This document shows positions 4,831-62,827 of a stretch of 64,000 nt of DNA, one piece after another. The notes under the pieces are model-generated. The model saw only the letters and a program-made list of their open reading frames with translations. It was not told where the DNA came from and searched no databases. The DNA lies in NCBI GenBank assembly GCA_949130485.1, contig OX422195.1, positions 2,217,566 to 2,281,565 of the forward strand. Reading direction: 5' to 3'. This stretch comes from Agelas oroides (taxonomy: Eukaryota > Porifera > Demospongiae > Agelasida > Agelasidae). Both the position numbers and the translations under genes were made by a program. Each line of letters starts with the position of its first letter. Within the stretch, counting starts at the first letter, position 1.

Positions 4831-5781
4831 AATGTGATCATACAACAGAAATGTTTTGATATACTATTACAATGGTCTAGATGCACATGATTGTGAATGA
4901 TGTACAACTGTATGCTACTGTAGTCAAGTTGAAGTAGCCTCCGATCTTCCCATTTTGATCACTTATTGTGTCATACCGTAAATGCTGGAATGCGGCAAGG
5001 TCTGGGAATGAGTAGGAACAAGGCTATGGTTGACAGTTGTTTAAATTGTCGGGTCACGCATACAATTTAGTCGCATTCATCCTTGTAAACAATGAGTAAT
5101 CCCTCATTGAGTCACCTCTCCTGTGAAATCAATTATCGGACTCATGTATAAGTGATTTCCTACAAGGCCCGGTAACTAGCAATATTTTCAGTTGGCCAAG
5201 AACTTGCTCTTTCTGGCAGTGACTTCTAGTGGAGACAACAGAGCGGTAGCAAATGATTCTCATCTATTTACTGATTTCTTGTTCACTTCAGTGGCAGTGC
5301 CTTCATGCCTAGCCTGATAGGTTGAAGTTCTTTGTTGTTAACAATCACCTGACGAATGGAGTCTGTTTCAATCTGGAGTCTTGCTGGCGTCTTGCTGTCA
5401 TCATGGCCATTCGTCAAAGTACACAGAGGGTGTGGCACACGTTCAAAATGATGCAATTATGACGTGACCGTTTCAAACGGTGTGAACTTATGCCAGCTAC
5501 GCTAGCGGAACTAGTGTTGAAGCTACCATATAGTGGCCCGAGATTAGTATACGGTAGTCCACGGAAAATCAAATTCCGTGTCCACGGATTTCTGGTAATG
5601 CCAGTGGCTGGTAACGTTATAACTGGAGGCTTCATTCCTGATACTGCGCTAAATTAGATAGGTAATGTGACCTTTGCTCTAAGGACATGACTAACTGACT
5701 TGTCACAATTTTGAGCAGTTGAGCAAGAACAGGTTTCATTGGGGCTTCAGCAGAACCTAATAGTTGTCAGTCTACTGCAAA
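4831..5781. other. Upstream region of the death-domain gene
   Basis: It holds the right arm of the inverted-repeat element up to 5496, then about 285 bp without recognised elements before the ATG at 5782. A polypyrimidine-poor stretch ends gttgtcag at about 5770, which could be a splice acceptor, so a small 5' non-coding exon cannot be excluded. No TATA box stands out. Confidence 0.4.
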
Positions 5782-7557
5782 ATGCCTTTGGAAGTGAATC
5801 TTGTGAATCTGCTGGATGTTCTACAGGAGGTAACTGACGTGGATAACCTAGGTCTTCACTTGTGTGTTCCAAAACATGAACTGGACAAAATCAGGCAAGA
5901 TTTTCGTACAACAGATGAACGAAAGAGGGAAATGTTACAATGGTGGCTAAAGCATGCACTCAATCCTACCTGGAGGAGGGTGATTGCTGCACTGAGAGCA
6001 GTCCATGAACCAAAACTAGCTGATGCAGTCTCACTAGTGTCCCAACGTGAAAGTCTGTATGAACCATGTGAAGAGGAGTCACAACGATGGGAAGGAAATC
6101 TCAAGAAGATCGAATCATTAGATACAAAACTTCAAAAACTTCATCAACATTCTGAAGACTTGGAAAAAGAGTGGGAGAAAGGTGAAAAGGAATGGCGAAA
6201 ATACTTGAAAAAAATGAAAAAGCTTGAAGAAAATTGGGAAGACCTTGTCAAAACCCAACAAACACAACAGGGAGATATTTTCACACTTGGGATGAGTCAT
6301 TCAGAATTACTGCACCGAATTGATGTGATGGAGCAGAAGGTACTACAGCACATAGCAAGAAGCAAGGAATTGAGAGATTTCTATGGAAGAGCCACGGAAC
6401 ATCAATGTGAGTTGCAAAAAACTGAAACAGAACTAAATGAGTGGAAAAAGGCACTGATTGAGCAGATATTGGAGCTGCAAAAGCGCATAGATCAACTAGA
6501 AGAACTGGGAGAGAAATTCTCAAAGGAAGCAAAGGATTGTAGAGAGCAGTTAGAAAAGTCGAGAGAACGACTACAGGCCTGCAGAAACAAAATGAGTGAA
6601 TGTCAGGATGAACTCACTAAATCACAGAGACAGCTACAGAAATGTCAAGATAAACTGATAGAATGTGAAGTGAGCTTGAGAAGGTGCAGAGATGAGCTGA
6701 GCAATGATCAGGAACAGATCACAAAATGCATTGAGGCACTAAAAAAGAAGTCAGAGGGACTGAAAAGGAAATCAGTGACCTTCTCAAGCAATAATCATAA
6801 TTTCTCAGTAACATTTTGTGGGCTTCTTGGCACAGGAATTGGCACTTTAGTTGGCATCATTGCAGCTGGCATTGGAGTTTGCACTGGAGTTGATGCTAGT
6901 GGAGTTAGCACTGGAGTTGGCAAAGTAGTTTGCACTGTAGTTGTTGCTATAATTGGTTGTATGTTTGGTGCTGTAGTTGGTGCTCTACTTTGTGCTGTAG
7001 TTCACTCTGTAGTTGGCCCTGGAGTTTACACTTATAAGGGTGCCATTGTACTATGTGCTGGATTTGGTGCTGTATATGGTACTAAAGCTGTTGCTGCACT
7101 TGGCACTGGAGTTGACAGTGGATTTGGTGCTCGATTTGGTTGTTTGCTTGGCGCTCTAGTTGGCAGTATAGTCGACAAGGTAGTTGCTGCTGTACTTGGT
7201 GCTAGAATTGACACTAGTATTGGTGCTGTAGTTTGCACTGGATTTGGTGCTGGTTTTGGCACTATAGTTGGCACTGGAGTTGACACTAAGGATGGTGCTA
7301 GAGCTGCTGCTTTGCTATTATTCGGGTCAATGGTGTTTGGGGCAATGTTAGGGATTGATGTAGGAACTCTGCAGGCCCATGCATGTAAGGATGAACTAGA
7401 AAACACATTAGACAAGCTATGTAAATGCAAACGTGAGCTAAATGATTGTCGTAATGTGATTGAAAGATGCAAGGAGGTACTGAGGAAGGGTGAGAAAGAA
7501 CTGGGAGAATTGCTAAGGATTGTGAGTGAGCTGAAACAAACATTTCACAGACTGTAA
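5782..7557 (+). CDS. Death-domain, coiled-coil and glycine-rich membrane-like protein
   Basis: This is a single open frame of 591 residues. The first ATG gives MPLEVNLVNLL. Residues 1-85 look like a death-fold domain: predicted helices with LLDVLQEV, LGLHLCVPKHELDKI and MLQWWLKHALNPTWRRVIAALRA, close to the death-domain pattern of a Trp in helix 5 and a closing ALR. Residues about 95-335 are a charged heptad-rich coiled coil with many Cys in its second half. Residues about 345-535 are rich in Gly, Ala and Val with repeated GxxxG spacing (GTGIGTLVGIIAAGIG), resembling glycine-zipper membrane segments. A short Cys-rich coiled coil closes the protein. Death domains mediate homotypic assembly in apoptosis and immune signalling. 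A membrane-acting effector is my inference. There is no intron, and the gene lies between inverted-repeat arms. Confidence 0.8.
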   Translation: MPLEVNLVNLLDVLQEVTDVDNLGLHLCVPKHELDKIRQDFRTTDERKREMLQWWLKHALNPTWRRVIAALRAVHEPKLADAVSLVSQRESLYEPCEEESQRWEGNLKKIESLDTKLQKLHQHSEDLEKEWEKGEKEWRKYLKKMKKLEENWEDLVKTQQTQQGDIFTLGMSHSELLHRIDVMEQKVLQHIARSKELRDFYGRATEHQCELQKTETELNEWKKALIEQILELQKRIDQLEELGEKFSKEAKDCREQLEKSRERLQACRNKMSECQDELTKSQRQLQKCQDKLIECEVSLRRCRDELSNDQEQITKCIEALKKKSEGLKRKSVTFSSNNHNFSVTFCGLLGTGIGTLVGIIAAGIGVCTGVDASGVSTGVGKVVCTVVVAIIGCMFGAVVGALLCAVVHSVVGPGVYTYKGAIVLCAGFGAVYGTKAVAALGTGVDSGFGARFGCLLGALVGSIVDKVVAAVLGARIDTSIGAVVCTGFGAGFGTIVGTGVDTKDGARAAALLLFGSMVFGAMLGIDVGTLQAHACKDELENTLDKLCKCKRELNDCRNVIERCKEVLRKGEKELGELLRIVSELKQTFHRL

Positions 7558-7904
7558 CTGAGTGTGATTCATATTAGATAGTGCTTACAATGTATGGCAC
7601 TTTTCTTGTGGTTGTGTAATTTGTATAGCCTTGTGTAGGAGCAGTAGCGGCCATAGAAGCTTTGGCCGCTACACTTTTTAGCCTGTAGATTAATATTCAT
7701 AACCTGCTATCTGCTGTAACTTATATTATATAGCTCAGCTGCAGCAGTCTCTTATACACAATTACTTGCGTACACTCATTTCCGCTTAAAGTACACTGTA
7801 AAGCGATCAAAATCTTGCCTGTGGGACGGCCTTAGTACATTGCAAGCGATAAAAAAGCTGGGCGATCTTCAGGGAACGACGACAAATTTATTATCATACC
7901 GTTT
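7558..7904. other. 3' flank of the death-domain gene
   Basis: No gene is seen. A perfect hairpin (gtagcggcca and its complement with an 8-base loop) lies at 7644-7672 about 90 bases after the stop. No AATAAA is evident close to the stop codon. Confidence 0.4.
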
Positions 7905-7999
7905 GGCCATTCGTCAAAGTACACAGAGGGTGTGGCACACGTTCAAAATGATGCAATTATGACGTGACCGTTTCAAACGGTGTGAACTTATGCCATCCC
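7905..7999. repeat. Solo arm of the 3.1-kb inverted-repeat element
   Basis: The sequence ggccattcgtcaaagtacac onward repeats 5405-5493 almost exactly in the same orientation. It is inverted relative to 2392-2483. Its outer end, tgccatccc, mirrors gggatggca at 2392 better than the middle copy does. Confidence 0.8.
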
Positions 8000-8030
8000 A
8001 CGCGCGAACGCAAGGATCGTGGAGGATCGG

Positions 8031-8463
8031 TAGCCTCGTTCCCAGGCCTCCCCCGTTTTACCTTCCGTTTGCGTTCACAATAATACACGGGAGCGGAAGG
8101 CCGGCGAAAAACGGGGAAGGCCTGGGAGCATTCATCACGTGAATGACGTCAGGTGGACGTAGGGGGGGAGGGGCCCAACTGCCAAAACAACGCACAGGAC
8201 CATCCGTTCGAGCGCTCTACCGCGTTTTCGGGCTCCAGACCTTAGCGTGATGGAAACTACTCGTCTTGACCGGTAAGAAACTCACTTTCAAGTTTAGTAC
8301 GTTTATATTTGAATATCGGCCCCTCCCCCCCTACATCCACCTCGCGTCCACTCACGTGATGAATGCTCCCAGGCCTTCCCCGTTTTTCGCCGGCCTTCCG
8401 CTCCCGTGTATTATTGTGAACGCGAACGGAAGGTAAAACGAGGGAGGCCTGGGACCGAGGCTA
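8031..8463. mobile_element. Long palindrome with arms of about 145 bp
   Basis: Bases about 8031-8178 and 8318-8463 are near-perfect reverse complements: tagcctcgttcccaggcct at one end, ggcctgggaccgaggcta at the other. The spacer is about 140 bp. The ends match the TAGYCTCG family. The sequence is GC-rich and could form a stable hairpin. Confidence 0.85.
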
Positions 8464-8464
8464 G

Positions 8465-8548
8465 ATGCTCCCAGGCCTTCCCCGATCTTCCGATTCCGTG
8501 TGAACGCAAAGGGAAGATCAAAACGGGGAAGGCCTGGGACCGAGGCTA
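8465..8548. mobile_element. Small hairpin element adjacent to the palindrome
   Basis: The phrase gctcccaggccttccccgat pairs with atcaaaacggggaaggcctg, ending cgaggcta. It looks like a deletion derivative of the neighbouring palindrome. Confidence 0.7.
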
Positions 8549-9340
8549 ACCTCTCCCCCTTATGTCGCTAAACAACTCACGGCTCTGTTCCATACACAAC
8601 CACTCTTCAGCTCCTTTGGGTACTGGAGCGTAATACCAACGATAATTGCGTATTCTAGTCAAGCCCAGCCCAGTACTCGAAGCACCTGGCCACGGTCACC
8701 AACTAGGCTAGGCTTACGGCCGCGAGACCTGCAAGCTCTGCCGTGAAATGTGCATTCATCTTGGTGCAGTCAAAGTTGTCCATGCATTCCAAGAATAGTG
8801 ACAAACACGAGTCTAGCCTGACTTTGAGACTGTAGCTCTGAACAAAAGCTGGCACACTTGATTTGAGTTACATTGGTGGTTAGGACGCTACCTACAGTGA
8901 GCATGTAGATGCGTCCATCGAGTGGCAATTTTGGGTTCATGAATATATTAAGAACTACTAAAACCCTTTTTAAAATTAGGCAAAGCAAGATTGCCCTAAA
9001 GCAAACCCTAACCCTGAAACTTACTAACTAGGACCCTGGTCCTGACTGTAACCCAGGTTTATGTTAATTTTCATTAACCTCCACCAAGAGACTTCCGTGC
9101 CACCTTAATTAATGTTCCCTGCAAAATGCTGGCTGATCTAAAGTTAGACCTATGAGACTAAAATTAATTAAACACAAATCATCAGCGGATTGATCATGAG
9201 GACTCTTACAAGGCCTACAAAATACTACTAGTGCAAAACACTGTTCCATGCACAGCAGGTCTGTTGCAAGTCAATTGCATCCACACGTTTATTGAACACT
9301 TGCTGGTGTCCCCAATGTCATACTGCATGATGTTTCATGA
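8549..9340. other. Intergenic stretch, no gene seen
   Basis: There are only short chance frames and no recognised repeat apart from AT-rich patches. It ends where similarity to the 35.5-kb and 63.2-kb regions begins. Confidence 0.45.
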
Positions 9341-19000: not shown

Positions 19001-22000
19001 CCAATTATTGATCACTTGCGGTATCAATCAAAAACTAGAGGCAGGGAAGGCCTGGGAGTGAGGGTAAGTCAAGCCTTGCTCCAAGGCTCCTTCAAAAGAT
19101 CTAAAAGAGCCTGGCCACACTTGTGTCTGCACTGCGTTGAAAGTGATACACAAAAATGGACACACACAAAGTGACTACTGCTCATACTCAGTTTGCTGGT
19201 TGCATCAGAAGGTATTCGGGTATTCATCCTGCAGAGTCAATGCCTGCCTACCAGAAATCCAGCCTGAGAATATTGAACAGTGTCTACGGATCTATCCTCT
19301 GTTCCGATGCCAGAGCTCCAGTGGCTCAGTTTGTAAGAACATCCGACTAATCTATCTTCTGCTGCCAGAGCTCCAGTGGCTTGTAAGAGCATCCGACCGA
19401 TCTATCTTCTGCTGCCAGAGCTCCAGTGGCTCGATGGTAAGAACATCCGACTAATCTATCTTCTGCTGCCAGAGCTCCAGTGGCTCGATGGTAAGAGCAT
19501 CCGACTGATCTATCTTCTGCTGCCAGAGCTCCAGTGGCTCGATGGTAAGAACATCCGACTAATCTATCTTCTGCTGCCAGAGCTCCAGTGGCACAGATTG
19601 TAAGAGCATCCGACCGATCTATCTTCTGCTGCCAGAGCTCCAGTGGCTCGATGGTAAGAACATCCGACTAATCTATCTTCTGCTGCCAGAGCTCCAGTGG
19701 CTCGATGGTAAGAGCATCCGACTAATCTATCTTCTGCTGCCAGAGTTCCATTGGCTCAGATGGTAAGAGCATCCGACTAATCTATCTTCTGCTGCCAGAG
19801 CTCCAGTGGCTCACTTTGTAAGAGCATCCGACTAATCTATCTTCTGCTGCCAGAGCTCCAGTGGCACAGATTGTAAGAGCATCCGACCGATCTATCTTCT
19901 GCTGCCAGAGCTCCAGTGGCTCAGATGGTAAGAGCATCCGACTAATCTATCTTCTGCTGCCAGAGCTCCAGTGGCTCGATGGTAAGAACATCCGACTAAT
20001 CTATCTTCTGCTGCCAGAGTTCCATTGGCTCAGATGGTAAGAGCATCCGACTAATCTATCTTCTGCTGCCAGAGCTCCGGCATTCAGAAGACCCAGGTTT
20101 GAATCCTGGCTTGAACTCATGTCCTTTGTACCAAGTCAGTGCAACTATTTAATGAACACTTATCATATATCTCACTTGATACAAAGTTAACAATTCTTCA
20201 TAGCATGACATTGGCATCAAGCAGTTTCCACATTAAGAAATGAGTGGAAGGTGAACATCTCCTGAAATCAAGAGCTGCTGACTTAGCACATACAGAAAGT
20301 GTTGCAAGTATAACCAGGCCCTTTTTCAGAGGGGCCTAGAAATGAGACCCATCTCTTCAGCTTTACTGGGGCTGCAACGTTAGGCCTCAAACCCAGGCTT
20401 TCGGTTCCAGATTTTGTCTTCAAAGCTGCAAGACAAAATCTGGAACTGAATGCCTGCGTTCGAGGCTTTGTATTCTGGCCTGGCTAGCTGGCTACATACC
20501 ACTCACTACCAGTTTCTGATGTGGCCATGATAAAGATTGTCACACTACAATACATAGAAGTTGGTATAGTGGAACGACCAGGGAATGAGGTTGGGGTCTT
20601 GTCCCTTCCCCTATTTATTATTTACTGACATCTCTATAGCCTTGTTCCTAGGCCCTGAGGTCAGTGAAGTTGGGGTCTTGTCCCTTCCCCTATTTATTGT
20701 TTACTGACATCTCTATAGCCTTGTTCCTAGGCCCTGAGGTCAGTGAAGTTGTGGTCTTGTCCCTTCCCCTATTTATTATTTACTGACATCTCTATAGCCT
20801 TGTTTCATGCCCAGAGTTCAGGCGGGCCTGGGGTAATGTCCTAAGGTCAAACTCTTCGTTGCCAACTAATACAATTGAGTTCAAGATATACTACATTGTT
20901 AAATGAATTTGCTGTGTCCAGCACATGCAGCCTTGGCACGCACCATCAAATACTATATTATTGCATATTATGTAACCATGTTTATTATGTTACCACATTC
21001 CAAGTGCTGCCCCATAAGAGTCCATCCCTTACAAGGGCGTAGCTAGGATTTGTTGAGTGAGGAGGCAACACCTTACAGCGCACGGCGAAAATTTAGCTAA
21101 TTAATTATTCATAACTTAACTAATTCAATCAACCAACGTTAAAAGGACGTAAATGTATTTCCTTCCACGCTTTGTAAAGAAAGTCGTTGTCAATGCTGCT
21201 GGTCTTTTCCCAACCAGGAGCGAGTGAGTTCCGATGTAATTTACTTTGCGCATGCGCTGGATACTTTATAGGACATCGCCAATGCGTGCGCGCGCTCTTA
21301 CGCAGAAAACTGAGGAGGCAACTGCCTCCTCTGCCTCATTGCTAGCTATGCCCCTGCCTTATCAAAACTTCTCTACTACCATGGGGTCATATGTAATTCA
21401 CAGTGCATGAAATGTCTATGCAGCACATATATACGAGCCAGCCCTTGAAGTCCTGCACAATGGCACTTCTAAGTGTTACGTAATGTGTTTATAATACAAA
21501 CAGAATAATGTTTACTTTCTACCTGGGAATGCCACAACTGTATGTATCAGTACAACTCACCTTTTGAGTAGAGATTTGACGTGATGAAAATCACCTTGAT
21601 ACTCATCACAGTCTGGAATCTGTGGGCAGGAAAATATCAGTTCACTTTATTCGCTTTCTGATTTACCCTCCCACTCCTGCATCTAAAACTTGGCATGCAC
21701 GAGGACACCCTCTCCTCCCTCCTGTTTAAGGAAAGACTAAATTCAACAGGGCTATGGGCTCTGGACTAGGTGTGGACCATGTTCTACTCACAATAACAGC
21801 AGAGAATCTCTCTATCAAAAATTGAGGTACATACTCACTATTCATTTTTTAAAGGGTCATACACGTAAATTATTGGAGTATGATGTGTCCATGTCAAATG
21901 AAGGTGCTTGACTTCAAGTCTTAACCCATTCCTACATATTTTACCTTCACGTCCTTTAGAGGGACATTTAAGCCACTGGCTTCAGGGAATCCTTTAATAG

Positions 22001-31795: not shown

Positions 31796-31867
31796 GCTCC
31801 GGTGGCTCAGTTGGTAAGACCATCTGACCGGCATTCAGAAGATCCAGCTTCAAATCCTGGCTGGATC
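31796..31867 (+). tRNA. tRNA-Ala(GGC)-like sequence, probably a SINE head
   Basis: The 72 bases fold as a near-complete cloverleaf. The acceptor arm GCTCCGG pairs with CTGGATC (one mismatch and one wobble), the anticodon stem is TCTGA/TCAGA around a loop containing GGC, and the TTCAAAT loop is present. The A box (TGGCTCAGTTGGTAAGA) and B box (CTTCAAATCC) are recognisable. A leader shared with 19250 (atccagcctgagaat) argues for a SINE rather than a functional tRNA. Copy B has it at 60257-60328. Confidence 0.45.
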
Positions 31868-32119
31868 TCAATGTCTTTTTTCGCCATGTCATTTTCTTCT
31901 CTTACTGTGTCTCATAAGCCTTCCTCTGGCTGGTTGTGTATACAAATGACACAAAAATTAAAATTTGATTGATTAGTTGTTAGCTCATTTTAAGCCACGT
32001 TTTTGAAGAGTATGCTCCTGTCATCTTTCCTCATCAAAGTCCCTGTCAATTGCCAAGTCACTGGAATCATAGGGTCAGTGACTAGAATGTACGTTGCAAC
32101 AAAGCAGTCCTGCATCAAG

Positions 32120-33675
32120 AGTACTGTAGTACTGCAGCCCCACCTCCAGAGCTATAGTGCACAGTAACCATGCACACTACTGTAGTACTGCAGCCCCACC
32201 TCCAGAGCTTTGTTGCACAGTAACCATGCACACTACCGTAGTACTGCAGCCCCACCTCCATGCAGAGCTTTGTTGCACAGTACCATGCACACTACTGTAG
32301 TACTGCAGCCCCACCTCCAGAGCTTTGGTGCACAGTAACCATGCACACTACTGTAGTACTGCAGCCCCACCTCCAGAGCTTTGTTGCACAGTAACCATGC
32401 ACACTACCGTAGTACTGCAGCCCCACCTCCATGCAGAGCTTTGTTGCACAGTACCATGCACACTACTGTAGTACTGCAGCCCCACCTCCAGAGCTTTGGT
32501 GCACAGTAACCATGCACACTACTGTAGTACTGCAGCCCCACCTCCAGAGCTTTGTTGCACAGTAACCATGCACACTACCGTAGTACTGCAGCCCCACCTC
32601 CATGCAGAGCTTTGTTGCACAGTACCATGCACACTACTGTAGTACTGCAGCCCCACCTCCAGAGCTTTGTTGCACAGTAACCATGCACACTACTGTAGTA
32701 CTGCAGCCCCACCTCCAGAGCTTTGTTGCACAGTACCATGCACACTACTGTAGTACTGCAGCCCCACCTCCAGAGCTTTGTTGCACAGTAACCATGCACA
32801 CTACTGTAGTACTGCAGCCCCACCTCCAGAGCTTTGTTGCACAGTACCATGCACACTACTGTAGTACTGCAGCCCCACCTCCAGAGCTTTGTTGCACAGT
32901 AACCATGCACACTACTGTAGTACTGCAGCCCCACCTCCAGAGCTTTGTTGCACAGTACCATGCACACTACTGTAGTACTGCAGCCCCACCTCCAGAGCTT
33001 TGTTGCACAGTAACCATGCACACTACCGTAGTACTGCAGCCCCACCTCCATGCAGAGCTTTGTTGCACAGTACCATGCACACTACTGTAGTACTGCAGCC
33101 CCACCTCCAGAGCTTTGGTGCACAGTAACCATGCACACTACTGTAGTACTGCAGCCCCACCTCCAGAGCTTTGTTGCACAGTAACCATGCACACTACCGT
33201 AGTACTGCAGCCCCACCTCCATGCAGAGCTTTGTTGCACAGTACCATGCACACTACTGTAGTACTGCAGCCCCACCTCCAGAGCTTTGTTGCACAGTAAC
33301 CATGCACACTACTGTAGTACTGCAGCCCCACCTCCAGAGCTTTGTTGCACAGTACCATGCACACTACTGTAGTACTGCAGCCCCACCTCCAGAGCTTTGT
33401 TGCACAGTAACCATGCACACTACCGTAGTACTGCAGCCCCACCTCCATGCAGAGCTTTGTTGCACAGTACCATGCACACTACTGTAGTACTGCAGCCCCA
33501 CCTCCAGAGCTTTGTTGCACAGTAACCATGCACACTACTGTAGTACTGCAGCCCCACCTCCAGAGCTTTGTTGCACAGTACCATGCACACTACTGTAGTA
33601 CTGCAGCCCCACCTCCAGAGCTTTGTTGCACAGTAACCATGCACACTACTGTAGTACTGCAGCCCCACCTCCAGC
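32120..33675. repeat. 57-bp minisatellite, about 27 units (copy A)
   Basis: Units of 55-60 bp contain actactgtagtactgcagcc and agctttgttgcacagta. Alternating variants, some with an extra catgcag, keep long frames open on both strands; they are repeat artefacts. Copy B has about 13 units. Confidence 0.9.
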
Positions 33676-34084
33676 GCAGTACTGATATAGAGGAATGTAC
33701 ATAAAGTAGGCTCAAAATTATCCAAGGTCTTCAACTAAATGAGGCACACTTTGTAAACAATATGTATTACCGTTCATGCAGATGCAAGACAGTTTGTGCT
33801 AAGCACATGGCTGCAGAATCAGAATATGATGAAGAGGGACAGAAGTGAGACAGTCTAGCAAGGCAATCTCTGGCTAAGCTTTCTCCCCATGCTCTGTGGA
33901 GTACAGTTGCTATATGTAAAGCGGAGTTATGCTTATTGTGCAATAGTATAAGTATGTGACATCAATACTGTAGCAAACCTGTATGAAAAATGTTCTGCTT
34001 TGTAGCTAAAAACATGCAATTAATGGTCTTGCTGCTCTTTCTTAGCAATGCAGCCCTTGAGTGAGAAAAGAAGTTTCTAAGGCA

Positions 34085-47639: not shown

Positions 47640-47885
47640 CCGATGCCAGAGCTCCAGTAGCTCAGTTTGTAAGAGCATCCGACTAATCTATCTTCTGCTG
47701 CCAGAGCTCCAGTGGCACAGATGGTAAGAACATCCGACTAATCTATCTTCTGCTGCCAGAGCTCCAGTGGCACAGATGGTAAGAACATCCGACTAATCTA
47801 TCTTCTGCTGCCAGAGTTCCAGTGGCTCAGATGGTAAGAGCATCCGACTAATCTATCTTCTGCTGCCAGAGCTCCGGCATTCAGA
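47640..47885 (+). repeat. 54-bp tRNA-like minisatellite, copy B
   Basis: About four to five units of the array are present; copy A has about 14 units in the same intron. Confidence 0.8.
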
Positions 47886-48369
47886 AGACCCAGGTTTGAA
47901 TCCTGGCTTGAACTCATGTCCTTTGTACCAAGTCAGTGCAACTATTTAATGAACACTTATCATATATCTCACTTGATACAAAGTTAACAATTCTTCATAG
48001 CATGACATTGGCATCATGCAGTTTCCACATTAAGAAATGAGTGGAAGATGAACATGTCCTGAAATCAAGAGCTGCTGACTTAGCACATACAGAAAGTGTT
48101 GCAAGTATAACCAGGCCCTTTTTCAGAGGGGCCTAGAAAGGAGACCCATCTCTTCAGCTTTACTGGGGCTGCAACGTTAGGCCTCAAACCCAGGCTTTCG
48201 GTTCCAGATTTTGTCTTCAAAGCTGCAAGACAAAATCTGGAACTGAATGCCTGCGTTCGAGGCTTTGTCTTCTGGCTGGCTACATACCACTCACTACCAG
48301 TTTCTGATGTGGCCATGATAAAGATTGTCACACTACACATACATAGAAGTTGGTATAGTGGAACGACCA

Positions 48370-50965
48370 GGGAATGAAGTTGTGGTCTTGTCCCTTCCCC
48401 TATTTATTATTTACTGACATCTCTATAGCCTTGTTCCTAGGCCCTGAGGTCAGTGAAGTTGTGGTCTTGTCCCTTCCCCTATTTATTATTTACTGACATC
48501 TCTATAGCCTTGTTCCTAGGCCCTGAGGTCAGTGAAGTTGTGGTCTTGTCCCTTCCCCTATTTATTGTTTACTGACATCTCTATAGCCTTGTTCCTAGGC
48601 CATGAGGTCAGTGAAGTTGGGGTCTTGTCCCTTCCCCTATTTATTGTTTACTGACATCTCTATAGCCTTGTTCCTAGGCTCTGAGGTCAGTGAAGTTGTG
48701 GTCTTGTCCCTTCCCCTATTTATTGTTTACTGACATCTCTATAGCCTTGTTCCTAGGCCATGAGGTCAGTGAAGTTGGGGTCTTGTCCCTTCCCCTATTT
48801 ATTATTTACTGACATCTCTATAGCCTTGTTCCTAGGCCATGAGGTCAGTGAAGTTGTGGTCTTGTCCCTTCCCCTATTTATTGTTTACTGACATCTCTAT
48901 AGCCTTGTTCCTAGGCCCTGAGGTCAGTGAAGTTGTGGTCTTGTCCCTTCCCCTATTTATTATTTACTGACATCTCTATAGCCTTGTTCCTAGGCCATGA
49001 GGTCAGTGAAGTTGTGGTCTTGTCCCTTCCCCTATTTATTGTTTACTGACATCTCTATAGCCTTGTTCCTAGGCCATGAGGTCAGTGAAGTTGTGGTCTT
49101 GTCCCTTCCCCTATTTATTGTTTACTGACATCTCTATAGCCTTGTTCCTAGGCTCTGAGGTCAGTGAAGTTGGGGTCTTGTCCCTTCCCCTATTTATTGT
49201 TTACTGACATCTCTATAGCCTTGTTCCTAGGCTCTGAGGTCAGTGAAGTTGGGGTCTTGTCCCTTCCCCTATTTATTGTTTACTGACATCTCTATAGCCT
49301 TGTTCCTAGGCTCTGAGGTCAGTGAAGTTGTGGTCTTGTCCCTTCCCCTATTTATTGTTTACTGACATCTCTATAGCCTTGTTCCTAGGCCATGAGGTCA
49401 GTGAAGTTGGGGTCTTGTCCCTTCCCCTATTTATTATTTACTGACATCTCTATAGCCTTGTTCCTAGGCCATGAGGTCAGTGAAGTTGGGGTCTTGTCCC
49501 TTCCCCTATTTATTGTTTACTGACATCTCTATAGCCTTGTTCCTAGGCCCTGAGGTCAGTGAAGTTGTGGTCTTGTCCCTTCCCCTATTTATTATTTACT
49601 GACATCTCTATAGCCTTGTTCCTAGGCCATGAGGTCAGTGAAGTTGTGGTCTTGTCCCTTCCCCTATTTATTGTTTACTGACATCTCTATAGCCTTGTTC
49701 CTAGGCTCTGAGGTCAGTGAAGTTGGGGTCTTGTCCCTTCCCCTATTTATTGTTTACTGACATCTCTATAGCCTTGTTCCTAGGCTCTGAGGTCAGTGAA
49801 GTTGGGGTCTTGTCCCTTCCCCTATTTATTGTTTACTGACATCTCTATAGCCTTGTTCCTAGGCTCTGAGGTCAGTGAAGTTGTGGTCTTGTCCCTTCCC
49901 CTATTTATTATTTACTGACATCTCTATAGCCTTGTTCCTAGGCTCTGAGGTCAGTGAAGTTGGGGTCTTGTCCCTTCCCCTATTTATTGTTTACTGACAT
50001 CTCTATAGCCTTGTTCCTAGGCTCTGAGGTCAGTGAAGTTGTGGTCTTGTCCCTTCCCCTATTTATTGTTTACTGACATCTCTATAGCCTTGTTCCTAGG
50101 CCATGAGGTCAGTGAAGTTGGGGTCTTGTCCCTTCCCCTATTTATTATTTACTGACATCTCTATAGCCTTGTTCCTAGGCCATGAGGTCAGTGAAGTTGG
50201 GGTCTTGTCCCTTCCCCTATTTATTATTTACTGACATCTCTATAGCCTTGTTCCTAGGCCATGAGGTCAGTGAAGTTGGGGTCTTGTCCCTTCCCCTATT
50301 TATTGTTTACTGACATCTCTATAGCCTTGTTCCTAGGCCATGAGGTCAGTGAAGTTGGGGTCTTGTCCCTTCCCCTATTTATTATTTACTGACATCTCTA
50401 TAGCCTTGTTCCTAGGCCATGAGGTCAGTGAAGTTGGGGTCTTGTCCCTTCCCCTATTTATTATTTACTGACATCTCTATAGCCTTGTTCCTAGGCCATG
50501 AGGTCAGTGAAGTTGGGGTCTTGTCCCTTCCCCTATTTATTATTTACTGACATCTCTATAGCCTTGTTCCTAGGCCATGAGGTCAGTGAAGTTGTGGTCT
50601 TGTCCCTTCCCCTATTTATCGTTTACTGACATCTCTATAGCCTTGTTCCTAGGCCATGAGGTCAGTGAAGTTGGGGTCTTGTCCCTTCCCCTATTTATTG
50701 TTTACTGACATCTCTATAGCCTTGTTCCTAGGCTCTGAGGTCAGTGAAGTTGGGGTCTTGTCCCTTCCCCTATTTATTGTTTACTGACATCTCTATAGCC
50801 TTGTTCCTAGGCTCTGAGGTCAGTGAAGTTGTGGTCTTGTCCCTTCCCCTATTTATTATTTACTGACATCTCTATAGCCTTGTTCCTAGGCCATGAGGTC
50901 AGTGAAGTTGGGGTCTTGTCCCTTCCCCTATTTATTGTTTACTGACATCTCTATAGCCTTGTTTC
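48370..50965. repeat. 79-bp minisatellite, about 33 units (copy B)
   Basis: Units are nearly identical, with a few alternating variants (gttgtgg or gttgggg; ttattattt or ttattgttt; ccctgagg, ccatgagg or ctctgagg). The runs of variants suggest recent slippage or unequal exchange. It lies in intron 8. Confidence 0.95.
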
Positions 50966-58918: not shown

Positions 58919-60582
58919 GATGCAATTTAGCCCTGTGTTGGAATTTGTTTGTTCGATGCTTGTATTTATATTATTTAGTGTCAATACATTTACTCCCACA
59001 CAAAACTGTGCAATTATTTTTGTAATAGCACAGGTAGAAAAGATTCTAATTGGACAAAAATACAAAAGCTACAAAACCAGTGCAAGGTGTAATAGCTCAC
59101 TGATTATATTAACATAATGTAAACTTGTAACTTATATGTGACAACAATTTGCTGTAAACTATACAATTTACTGTAAACTTGTATGCTATAATAAACCACC
59201 ACATCACATACATACTCATGCTTATTATAGCATACTGTAAACTAGGCAAAGTTTATGATTAATAAGGAACACCATGCTTTCTCTTATGATTTGGGATTAA
59301 TAGCACTCACGAAACGCGTCCTGCGCAGTGGGTGACTTTGCATAACATCTAGGCCTGTTTTATAAGGGAGATGTGGTTCGTTGATTGTTCATGAATGGCA
59401 TAATTGCACTCCGCTTCGCCTCGTGCAATTAACAGCCATTCACTCGTGCTATTAGTCCCAAATATGCACTCGAAACCATGCTGTTACTTATACTAATCAT
59501 CACAGTCCATCCATTAACGACAGTGAAATAAAACAGTGCAAAAAGTGTAATAGCTTATTGGTTGGCTGAACAACAGTCCAAAAAGTGTAATAGCTCTCTG
59601 ATTGGTTGAAAAACAGACTGTCAACAGTGCAAAAGTGTAATAACTCACTCATTGGTCAGTGACTTGTAAGTAGCTAGCTTCCCAACAATTTACTGTGATG
59701 TACTATAAACTTGTAAACTTGTAAGTAACAACAATTTGTTGTAAACTATATAGTGTAGTGTAAACTTGTATACCATAAACTTGCCTATCTCATACATACT
59801 CATACTTATTGTAGTGTACTGTCAACTTGGCAAGGTTTATGATTAGTAATCAATAGCATGTTTTCTCGTACAATTTTGGATTAATAGCACTCATGAATGG
59901 CATAATTGCACTCTGCTTTGCCTCGAGCAATTAATAGCCATTCACTCGTGCTATTAATCCCAAATTGCACTCGAAACCAACAACTCCAACTCCAACTTAC
60001 AACTCCACCTTATATCCCTGCCTTTCTTTTATAATCCATACATGTCATTTTCTATGAGAAGATGTATTTATTGCAGTTATTTGGTGAAGCTGATACCCAG
60101 CTCGCTGGGGCTGCAGCAAAAAGTACCTTGGTACTCCATACAGTGAGTTGCTTTAGCACTCACCATGCAAAGTAAAGCCTACTCCAAAGAGATCCAGCCT
60201 GAGAATTGAGCTGTGTCGATGGATATATACCATCTATCATCTGCTCCAATGCCAGAGCTCCGGTGGCTCAGTTGGTAAGACCATCTGACCGGCATTCAGA
60301 AGATCCAGCTTCAAATCCTGGCTGGATCTCAATGTCTTTTTTCGCCATGTCATTTTCTTCTCTTACTGTGTCTCATAAGCCTTCCTCTGGCTGGTTGTGT
60401 ATACAAATGACACAAAAATTAAAATTTGATTGATTAGTTGTTAGCTCATTTTAAGCCACGTTTTTGAAGAGTATGCTCCTGTCATCTTTCCTCATCAAAG
60501 TCCCTGTCAATTGCCAAGTCACTGGAATCATAGGGTCAGTGACTAGAATGTACGTTGCAACAAAGCAGTCCTGCATCAAGAG

Positions 60583-61345
60583 TACTGTAGTACTGCAGCC
60601 CCACCTCCAGAGCTATAGTGCACAGTAACCATGCACACTACTGTAGTACTGCAGCCCCACCTCCAGAGCTTTGTTGCACAGTAACCATGCACACTACCGT
60701 AGTACTGCAGCCCCACCTCCATGCAGAGCTTTGTTGCACAGTACCATGCACACTACTGTAGTACTGCAGCCCCACCTCCAGAGCTTTGGTGCACAGTAAC
60801 CATGCACACTACTGTAGTACTGCAGCCCCACCTCCAGAGCTTTGTTGCACAGTAACCATGCACACTACCGTAGTACTGCAGCCCCACCTCCATGCAGAGC
60901 TTTGTTGCACAGTACCATGCACACTACTGTAGTACTGCAGCCCCACCTCCAGAGCTTTGGTGCACAGTAACCATGCACACTACTGTAGTACTGCAGCCCC
61001 ACCTCCAGAGCTTTGTTGCACAGTAACCATGCACACTACCGTAGTACTGCAGCCCCACCTCCATGCAGAGCTTTGTTGCACAGTACCATGCACACTACTG
61101 TAGTACTGCAGCCCCACCTCCAGAGCTTTGTTGCACAGTAACCATGCACACTACTGTAGTACTGCAGCCCCACCTCCAGAGCTTTGTTGCACAGTACCAT
61201 GCACACTACTGTAGTACTGCAGCCCCACCTCCAGAGCTTTGTTGCACAGTAACCATGCACACTACTGTAGTACTGCAGCCCCACCTCCAGAGCTTTGTTG
61301 CACAGTAACCATGCACACTACTGTAGTACTGCAGCCCCACCTCCA
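60583..61345. repeat. 57-bp minisatellite, about 13 units (copy B)
   Basis: The same units as 32120-33675 are present at about half the copy number. Confidence 0.9.
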
Positions 61346-62827
61346 GCGCAGTACTGATATAGAGGAATGTACATAAAGTAGGCTCAAAATTATCCAAGGT
61401 CTTCAACTAAATGAGGCACACTTTGTAAACAATATGTATTACCGTTCATGCAGATGCAAGACAGTTTGTGCTAAGCACATGGCTGCAGAATCAGAATATG
61501 ATGAAGAGGGACAGAAGTGAGACAGTCTAGCAAGGCAATCTCTGGCTAAGCTTTCTCCCCATGCTCTGTGGAGTACAGTTGCTATATGTAAAGCGGAGTT
61601 ATGCTTATTGTGCAATAGTATAAGTATGTGACATCAATACTGTAGCAAACCTGTATGAAAAATGTTCTGCTTTGTAGCTAAAAACATGCAATTAATGGTC
61701 TTGCTGCTCTTTCTTAGCAATGCAGCCCTTGAGTAAGAAAAGAAGTTTCTAAGGCAATACCATGAGACACCATGAGACAGCGTAAGACACCGTGAGACAC
61801 TATGAGACACCATGAGACATCATTAGGCACTATGAGACACAGTAAGACACCATAAGACACTATATGAGACATAAGAAAAGATAAAGATTTACTCGAAAGC
61901 ACGCAGAAGTTTGCACGTAAAATATCACAAAAAAAAAAAAAAAAAACGGGGACAAAGGCCATGATGAGCTTCTGAATATGACTAACTTGGCCAACCTTGC
62001 AGACAGAAGGTTTAACTGTGTTCCTTATACAAAATGGTGCGCAATGTTTTATTTTTCCCATAACATTGTAGCACCTAAAGTCACTAGATCATATACAAGC
62101 ATGCCCTTTACCTTGTACCAGCCCTTTGGATATATACTAATTGTTTTTTCAACTCTTTTGTCCCACATTCTGTATCACACTGGAACTCACTTTCTGAGCC
62201 AGTTGTTTCAACTCCCTCGATCCTTGCAACTTGTACCCATTGCTATTATACGCAAAACTAAATAGAAATAATAAAATTTAATTACAAACCAAGTGGAAAG
62301 AAAAAATTTACAAATGAATGAATGAATGAAAAGCCACAAAAGTGCACATGTATGTCCAATGTTTTAGCCTTTCTCTCCAAGCCTGAGAGGACTTGCTGAA
62401 GTTTGACACCACAGCTAGATACAGCTGTCATTGAAGTACCTTTGGTTAAAGCGCTATATATGGCTGAGAGTTAATCTACGGAGACTATATATAGGGCCAA
62501 ACATTTGCCATCACGAAATGGGACCAATGGTGACACAGGATTTTACAGTGGCCATACTAGCTATCTTAGCATGAAGGTACTTACATTTGCTAAAGATGAG
62601 AATACACGTCATGTATGCAATTCTTTTTAAACCACTGCTAACCTCAGTTATGATCGAAAATGTTGACACTTCAGTGACCACATAAACTTCATCCCAACTT
62701 GCAGCTCTGGAGCCTTGTATAAAGGCTATGGTAGAACAAGCTAGATCTATTAGCTTTATGGTAGCAGACTACCAATACAGTACAGCAACACTGAGCTACA
62801 AGTCACTTCAGTGAAGTGCGCACATAG

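Follow-up and report, generated by a model that had tools for sequence, protein, structure and literature searches.

A single-exon gene in a 64,000-nt stretch of contig OX422195.1 from the sponge Agelas oroides (this whole stretch is called the window below) encodes a predicted protein of 591 amino acids, in which an N-terminal death domain is followed by coiled coils and by a hydrophobic block that coincides with a degenerate short DNA repeat. The gene is protein-coding, uninterrupted and that of an animal-type genome. Its architecture is real at sequence level and unusual, and for its function we propose, tentatively and at somewhat less than even confidence, that the best explanation is a membrane-anchored death-domain scaffold. 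We favour this reading because of the length of the open reading frame (ORF), the PF00531 match, the PIDD and FADD matches, the heptads, the Leu/Cys cores and the charge-separated hydrophobic segments, and further because only the coding frame is free of stops across the 12-nt repeat and polar residues are fewer there than in simulated decay. The gene lies as follows.

5782..7557, + strand: single-exon coding sequence of 591 amino acids with all domains inside (ORF analysis, stop counts in other frames).

The ORF begins with an ATG at 5782, downstream of an in-frame stop at 5761, and runs for 591 codons to a stop codon that ends at 7557. Simulating 2600 nt of the region 1000 times with an order-2 Markov model gave a longest stop-free stretch of 222 codons (mean 116), and a run of 591 codons is therefore beyond chance. 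Over the same stretch the remaining five frames contain 53, 50, 38, 16 and 19 stops. The N-terminus of the protein carries the one domain that could be assigned to a family.

5803..6030, + strand: death domain, residues 8-83 (Pfam PF00531 and PDB sequence matches).

Searching the first 98 residues against Pfam-A gave PF00531 (Death) with an E-value of 6.6e-8 and 33.0 bits against a cut-off of 22.6, residues 8-83 aligning with positions 5-82 of the 86 in the profile. Death was the sole Pfam family at E<=1 for this 98-residue N-terminus, and it scored 27.3 bits with the whole protein as query. Among PDB sequence matches at E<1, all 12 distinct entries were death domains of PIDD or FADD (E 0.029-0.54); with E up to 10, PIDD or FADD made up 12 of 14. 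These matches are weak singly but appear mutually consistent. A structure model of the N-terminus made without an alignment contained six helices of at least 4 residues at a mean predicted local distance difference test (pLDDT) score of 48.1, and its weak fold matches included no death domain. By sequence, residues 8-83 belong to the death-domain family, from which the fold itself is predicted; the original prediction of a death domain here is borne out to that extent by a PF00531 score above the curated cut-off.

C-terminal of the death domain the protein shows heptad periodicity over three regions.

6034..6327, + strand: coiled coil 1, approximately residues 85-182 (heptad contrast up to 6.3 standard deviations (sd) over shuffles).
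6370..6789, + strand: coiled coil 2, approximately residues 197-336, its C-terminal half a Leu(a)/Cys(d) zipper (heptads, Cys positions).
7381..7554, + strand: coiled coil 3, residues 534-591, a second Leu/Cys zipper, C-terminal of the hydrophobic block (heptad contrast up to 5.0 sd).

Heptads were scored as hydrophobic residues at positions a and d in 42-residue test windows, with 300 shuffles for each. All 11 test windows starting at residues 78-148 (coil 1) reached 3.1-6.3 sd, and 15 of the 16 starting at residues 197-302 (coil 2) reached 3.3-6.5 sd, the exception being start 204 with 2.5 sd. Six between coils 1 and 2 (starts 155-190) were weak, at 0.9-2.4 sd; the best heptad register was identical for every test window starting at 85-302, these six included. 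Coil 3 gave 3.0-5.0 sd in 5 of 5 (starts 519-547). Cysteine occupies d for 7 of the 8 Cys residues of coil 2, an arrangement with a chance of 3e-5 in any one register under random placement, and for 4 of the 5 in coil 3, while Leu or Ile fills a at 12 of 20 positions in coil 2 and 6 of 9 in coil 3. With Leu/Cys cores in both coils, the hydrophobic block is therefore flanked by Leu/Cys zipper stretches. Aligning coil 3 with coil 2 gave a score of 74 (mean 38.9 and best 59 in 300 shuffles), part of which is owed to the heptad composition that the two share as coils. The long coiled coil that had been proposed from first inspection was thus confirmed in its heptads, although that account had overlooked the third, C-terminal coil and the Leu/Cys cores.

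Between coils 2 and 3 lies the hydrophobic block, together with the DNA repeat that encodes most of it.

6811..7380, + strand: G/V/A-rich hydrophobic block (residues 344-533), six candidate membrane segments inside (hydropathy, insertion-energy scan).
6828..7300, + strand: degenerate in-frame 12-nt (4-codon) tandem repeat with a consensus near GGCACTGGAGTT / GGCACTGTAGTT (sequence repeats).

Residues 340-525 comprise 39 G, 32 V and 25 A, with 15 residues charged or His. Read as codons, the 12-nt unit specifies mostly Gly at codon 1, Ala/Thr at codon 2, Gly/Val/Leu at codon 3 and Val/Leu/Phe/Ile at codon 4, and its phase is broken five times. G-xxx-G pairs number 15 in residues 340-525 against 7.8 in shuffles (z 3.2), spacing 4 being the strongest single spacing. 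Gly pairs are also raised at spacings 2, 6, 8 and 16 (z 1.8-2.3), are not raised at 10, 12 and 14, and are depleted at 1 and 3 (z -3.6 and -3.1, respectively). Because Gly is raised at spacings 2, 6 and 8 as well, GxxxG does not independently prove that helices pack here; we dropped it as packing evidence, the other raised spacings matching a 4-residue repeat, and read the pattern as a by-product of the 12-nt repeat. Of the earlier claim of nearly 190 residues rich in GxxxG, the block and the enrichment are real, and the pattern itself is traced to the DNA. The overall order that the same account gave (death domain, coil, hydrophobic region) was upheld at the level of the sequence.

The reading frame is kept through the repeat. 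Over 6829-7320 (164 codons) the coding frame has 0 stops and the other frames 12, 12, 6, 3 and 10. In 2000 simulated random decays of the 12-nt repeat, 25% were likewise free of stops, and polar or charged residues numbered 22.5 +/- 4.4, compared with 15 of 170 in the protein. Variation between repeat units, as summed entropies by codon base, was 5.99 for base 1, 5.21 for base 2 and 3.54 for base 3, and nonsynonymous exceeded synonymous divergence (pN > pS) in 4 of 5 repeat pairs of the array. We make no claim of positive selection from these values, since overlapping pairs and non-independent units were compared and third-base bias could mimic the effect; the higher variation at bases 1 and 2 is an oddity that could be composition.

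A crude scan of insertion energy gave three clear candidate membrane segments at residues 382-406 (-3.1), 348-367 (-1.4) and 509-525 (-1.4), one near zero at 448-464 (-0.2) and two unfavourable ones at 480-496 (+0.4) and 418-434 (+0.8). Charged residues separate the hydrophobic segments of the block. An AlphaFold2 (AF2) model of the block and coil 3 without an alignment had a mean pLDDT of 53.5; it placed seven helices across the block and immediately beyond it and a single long one along coil 3, and confirmed no membrane fold. Insertion of the block into a membrane is predicted from the sequence. Pfam includes a model for IFI6/ISG12; residues 334-540 gave 0 Pfam rows at E<=1, IFI6/ISG12 included, in a search whose HMMER filters drop weak matches. 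The block had no PDB sequence match at E<=10 and no PADLOC match, and in NCBIfam its two rows were both far below the cut-off.

These data also bear on a different reading, in which the block does not span a membrane but is an expanded DNA repeat that serves as a flexible, elastic or self-associating Gly/Val linker in a cytosolic death-domain coiled-coil scaffold working like the CARD-coiled-coil proteins. The coincidence of the block with a degenerate 12-nt repeat is in keeping with such a linker, as are the similar preference of Gly for spacings 2, 4, 6 and 8, the greater variation of codon bases 1 and 2 than of base 3, as if residue class alone were kept, and the 3 of 6 candidate segments that score near zero or unfavourably. 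However, the scores at 348-367, 382-406 and 509-525 are those of clear membrane spans, and simulated decay gave somewhat more polar residues than the protein has. We consider the linker unlikely.

Searches with the whole protein returned little beyond the death domain. Of 24 Pfam rows at E<=1, 23 were below cut-off, PF00531 being the sole exception; all 24 rows from NCBIfam, a prokaryotic library, were below cut-off, and two pieces of the protein gave no match in PADLOC. The membrane-protein family FUSC appeared over residues 224-434, which take in coil 2 and half of the block, its first (E 5.2e-5, 22.5 bits against a cut-off of 30.9) and was rejected; we ascribe it to coil and composition because the piece 334-540 alone gave no Pfam row. 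Neither the whole protein nor the death domain alone found relatives in viral and prokaryote genome contigs, nor did the whole protein among phage records; these collections are described as viral, bacterial and archaeal and so say little about animal genes. A literature search on the architecture, with most subscription journals outside its scope, recognised no paper with a death domain, a coil and a repeat-built hydrophobic block together; the one paper retrieved for a death domain in combination with a glycine zipper dealt with bacterial systems. The remark in the original prediction that no standard family has this order accordingly agrees with our Pfam, NCBIfam and PADLOC scans, in which PF00531 alone exceeded its curated cut-off. 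The protein resembles an immune or cell-death protein anchored in a membrane, and its design is apparently unmatched by any named family in the libraries scanned.

That first account had gone further and put the protein forward as a candidate effector, with assembly upon a signal and subsequent action on membranes as its putative mode. One form of this would be a self-contained executioner, in which an upstream signal clusters the death domains and coils and thereby drives the Gly-rich block into a membrane, which it would permeabilise after oligomerising there. MLKL, HeLo proteins and alpha-pore-forming toxins would be its analogues by other folds; in these a helical bundle or coil stands beside a membrane-active part. 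The order coil, hydrophobic block, coil is suggestive of such a device, and residues 227-373 match the alpha-pore-forming subunit MakE in NCBIfam (E 7e-6, 25.3 bits against a cut-off of 360). The MakE match is most likely coil composition, as SMC and Rad50 models score similarly or higher in the same list. No pore-former family exceeded its curated cut-off in Pfam or NCBIfam, no match to the families of MLKL, HeLo or alpha-pore-forming toxins rose above cut-off, and no four-helix-bundle executioner domain of the MLKL/HeLo kind had a Pfam row at E<=1, the structure model being too poor to judge it. Moreover, a block of 190 residues with strong hydrophobic segments would more plausibly enter the membrane co-translationally than stay soluble until triggered. 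We regard the executioner as possible but improbable and do not favour it; "effector" is one of several readings of this protein, and an anchored scaffold fits equally or better.

In the scaffold that we prefer, homotypic contact would join the N-terminal death domain to death domains of other proteins, such as adaptors or NOD-like receptors. The coil of about 250 residues would keep these N-terminal domains in register and hold them out from the membrane, in which the repeat-built hydrophobic block would serve as the anchor. With six (or four) segments across the membrane, coil 3 would return to the side of coil 2; the Leu/Cys zippers of the two match, which suggests that they pair, and redox control of this pairing is possible. 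With just the three clear segments across it, coil 3 would lie on the other side and would not pair with coil 2. Topology, partners and redox control are all predicted here, and any role in immunity would be equally putative.

The surroundings of the gene raise the question of how it came to lie where it does.

5404..5495, + strand: left copy of a perfect 92-bp direct repeat (self-comparison).
7904..7995, + strand: right copy of the perfect 92-bp direct repeat (self-comparison).
5496..7903, + strand: 2408-bp segment between the 92-bp repeats, with the whole gene inside (self-comparison).

The left and right copies are 100% identical. They belong to a dispersed repeat family with a third, uninterrupted member at 2675-2392 on the opposite strand, which is 83% identical (252/305 columns, 36 gaps) to a composite of the left flank (starting near 5210), a single repeat and the initial 4 bases of the right flank. 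Since the flanking copies are identical and the third copy has diverged, arrival of the 2408-bp segment probably duplicated the 92 bp in place. The match to the right flank is just 4 bases, and the case for an empty site therefore rests on the left side. The segment had no match elsewhere in the window, and no poly(A) tract was seen by eye at its 3' end. A long terminal repeat (LTR) element or terminal-repeat retrotransposon in miniature (TRIM) was considered and dropped: the 92-bp repeats start with TG and end with CA, but inspection by eye found neither a short outer target duplication nor any primer-binding-site-like or polypurine-like sequence inside. The segment may be a retrocopy, another kind of insertion or the relic of a tandem duplication. 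A foldback-like inverted repeat at 8031-8463, with 115-nt arms of 97% complementarity, lies 35 bp past the right 92-bp repeat.

Such an origin would allow the gene to be a silent retrocopy or recent inserted duplicate, that is, a 2408-bp insertion with 92-bp flanking duplications whose open frame has yet to decay. The single exon is what a retrocopy would show; identical 92-bp bounds beside a diverged, uninterrupted third family copy fit as well, and neither AATAAA nor ATTAAA occurs on the + strand in 7001-9000. On the other side, the 591-codon frame is intact through the repeat while all five other frames have stops, and the missing poly(A) tract speaks against simple retroposition. We judge a silent copy to be quite unlikely. 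A bolder version of events would have the 12-nt repeat expand inside a Leu/Cys coil and so create, de novo, a multi-pass membrane domain wired to a death domain; the product would be a one-protein sensor-to-membrane device for cell death or immunity, its membrane part opened or assembled by clustering or redox change, and mobilised as an intronless cassette. This we hold to be a long shot.

Fusion of a death domain with a membrane region of its own would directly link signalling assembly to a membrane. It would also show clearly that a membrane domain can arise from a short DNA repeat. If the gene is merely an unexpressed retrocopy, it is of little importance. Many death-domain proteins have been reported in early-branching animals, according to the available text of PMC8195603 and PMC12909245.

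The window, in our reading, resembles a repeat-rich animal genome. On its minus strand, 1065-2306 contains a partial ORF that matched Pfam RVT_1 at E 0.026 (14.7 bits against a cut-off of 29.6) and looks like the terminal part of a non-LTR reverse transcriptase, a label given by eye to a match below cut-off. The stretches 12049-36300 and 40012-64000 share approximately 21 kb of aligned blocks at 94-99.9% identity, occurring twice in the same order; these represent either an extensive tandem duplication or a haplotype left uncollapsed in the assembly, and the death-domain gene lies outside them. A tandem array (period 79 bp) lies at 48375-50963, where this duplicate copy has approximately 2.6 kb between matched blocks and the other copy approximately 0.5 kb, and arrays with a unit of approximately 56-59 bp at 32122-33677 and 60583-61349 likewise differ in length between the copies. 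Rfam tRNA matches were found at 20019-20117, 31796-31868, 47816-47914 and 60257-60329, none of them reported by ARAGORN; our guess is that those at 31796 and 60257 may be tRNA-derived short interspersed nuclear elements (SINEs).

Compared with known systems, the protein shares the common death-domain family PF00531 with PIDD and FADD, FADD aligning over residues 22-92 with single-residue gaps, although the sequence matches to both are individually weak, as given above. To our knowledge neither PIDD nor FADD has long Leu/Cys coils or a hydrophobic repeat block. The CARD-coiled-coil proteins are similar in design, but Pfam, which includes a CARD model, gave Death and no CARD row at E<=1 for the N-terminus, and as far as we know the family has neither a hydrophobic block nor a second zipper. 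Its members CARD9, CARD10, CARD11 and CARD14 combine a death-superfamily domain with a coiled coil in signalling complexes, as described in the available text of PMC5978004. Mdm33 and CCDC51 are membrane proteins that we liken to this one by description alone, not by sequence. Neither has a death domain as far as we know. Both are inner-mitochondrial-membrane proteins that figure in PMC11668171, a paper with mention of coiled coils and GxxxG.

None of the 24 whole-protein Pfam rows (E<=1) was for NACHT, leucine-rich repeats or TRADD-N. Models for NACHT and leucine-rich repeats are part of Pfam, and the protein, with neither of these features detected, would not count as a NOD-like receptor. 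Sponges are reported to have large expansions of varied architecture, in which a death-superfamily domain stands at the N-terminus and the C-terminus varies, the TRADD-N proteins of Amphimedon among them (PMC8195603, available text). Dysidea NOD-like receptors with an N-terminal DEATH domain, and transmembrane segments in some architectures of NOD-like receptors, are described in the accessible portion of PMC12909245. These expansions share the N-terminal death-superfamily domain and variable C-terminus with the protein described here, whereas a coil with a hydrophobic repeat is not mentioned for them in those portions of the two papers. Given that such expansions have been reported in sponges, another unusual death-domain fusion would not be very surprising.
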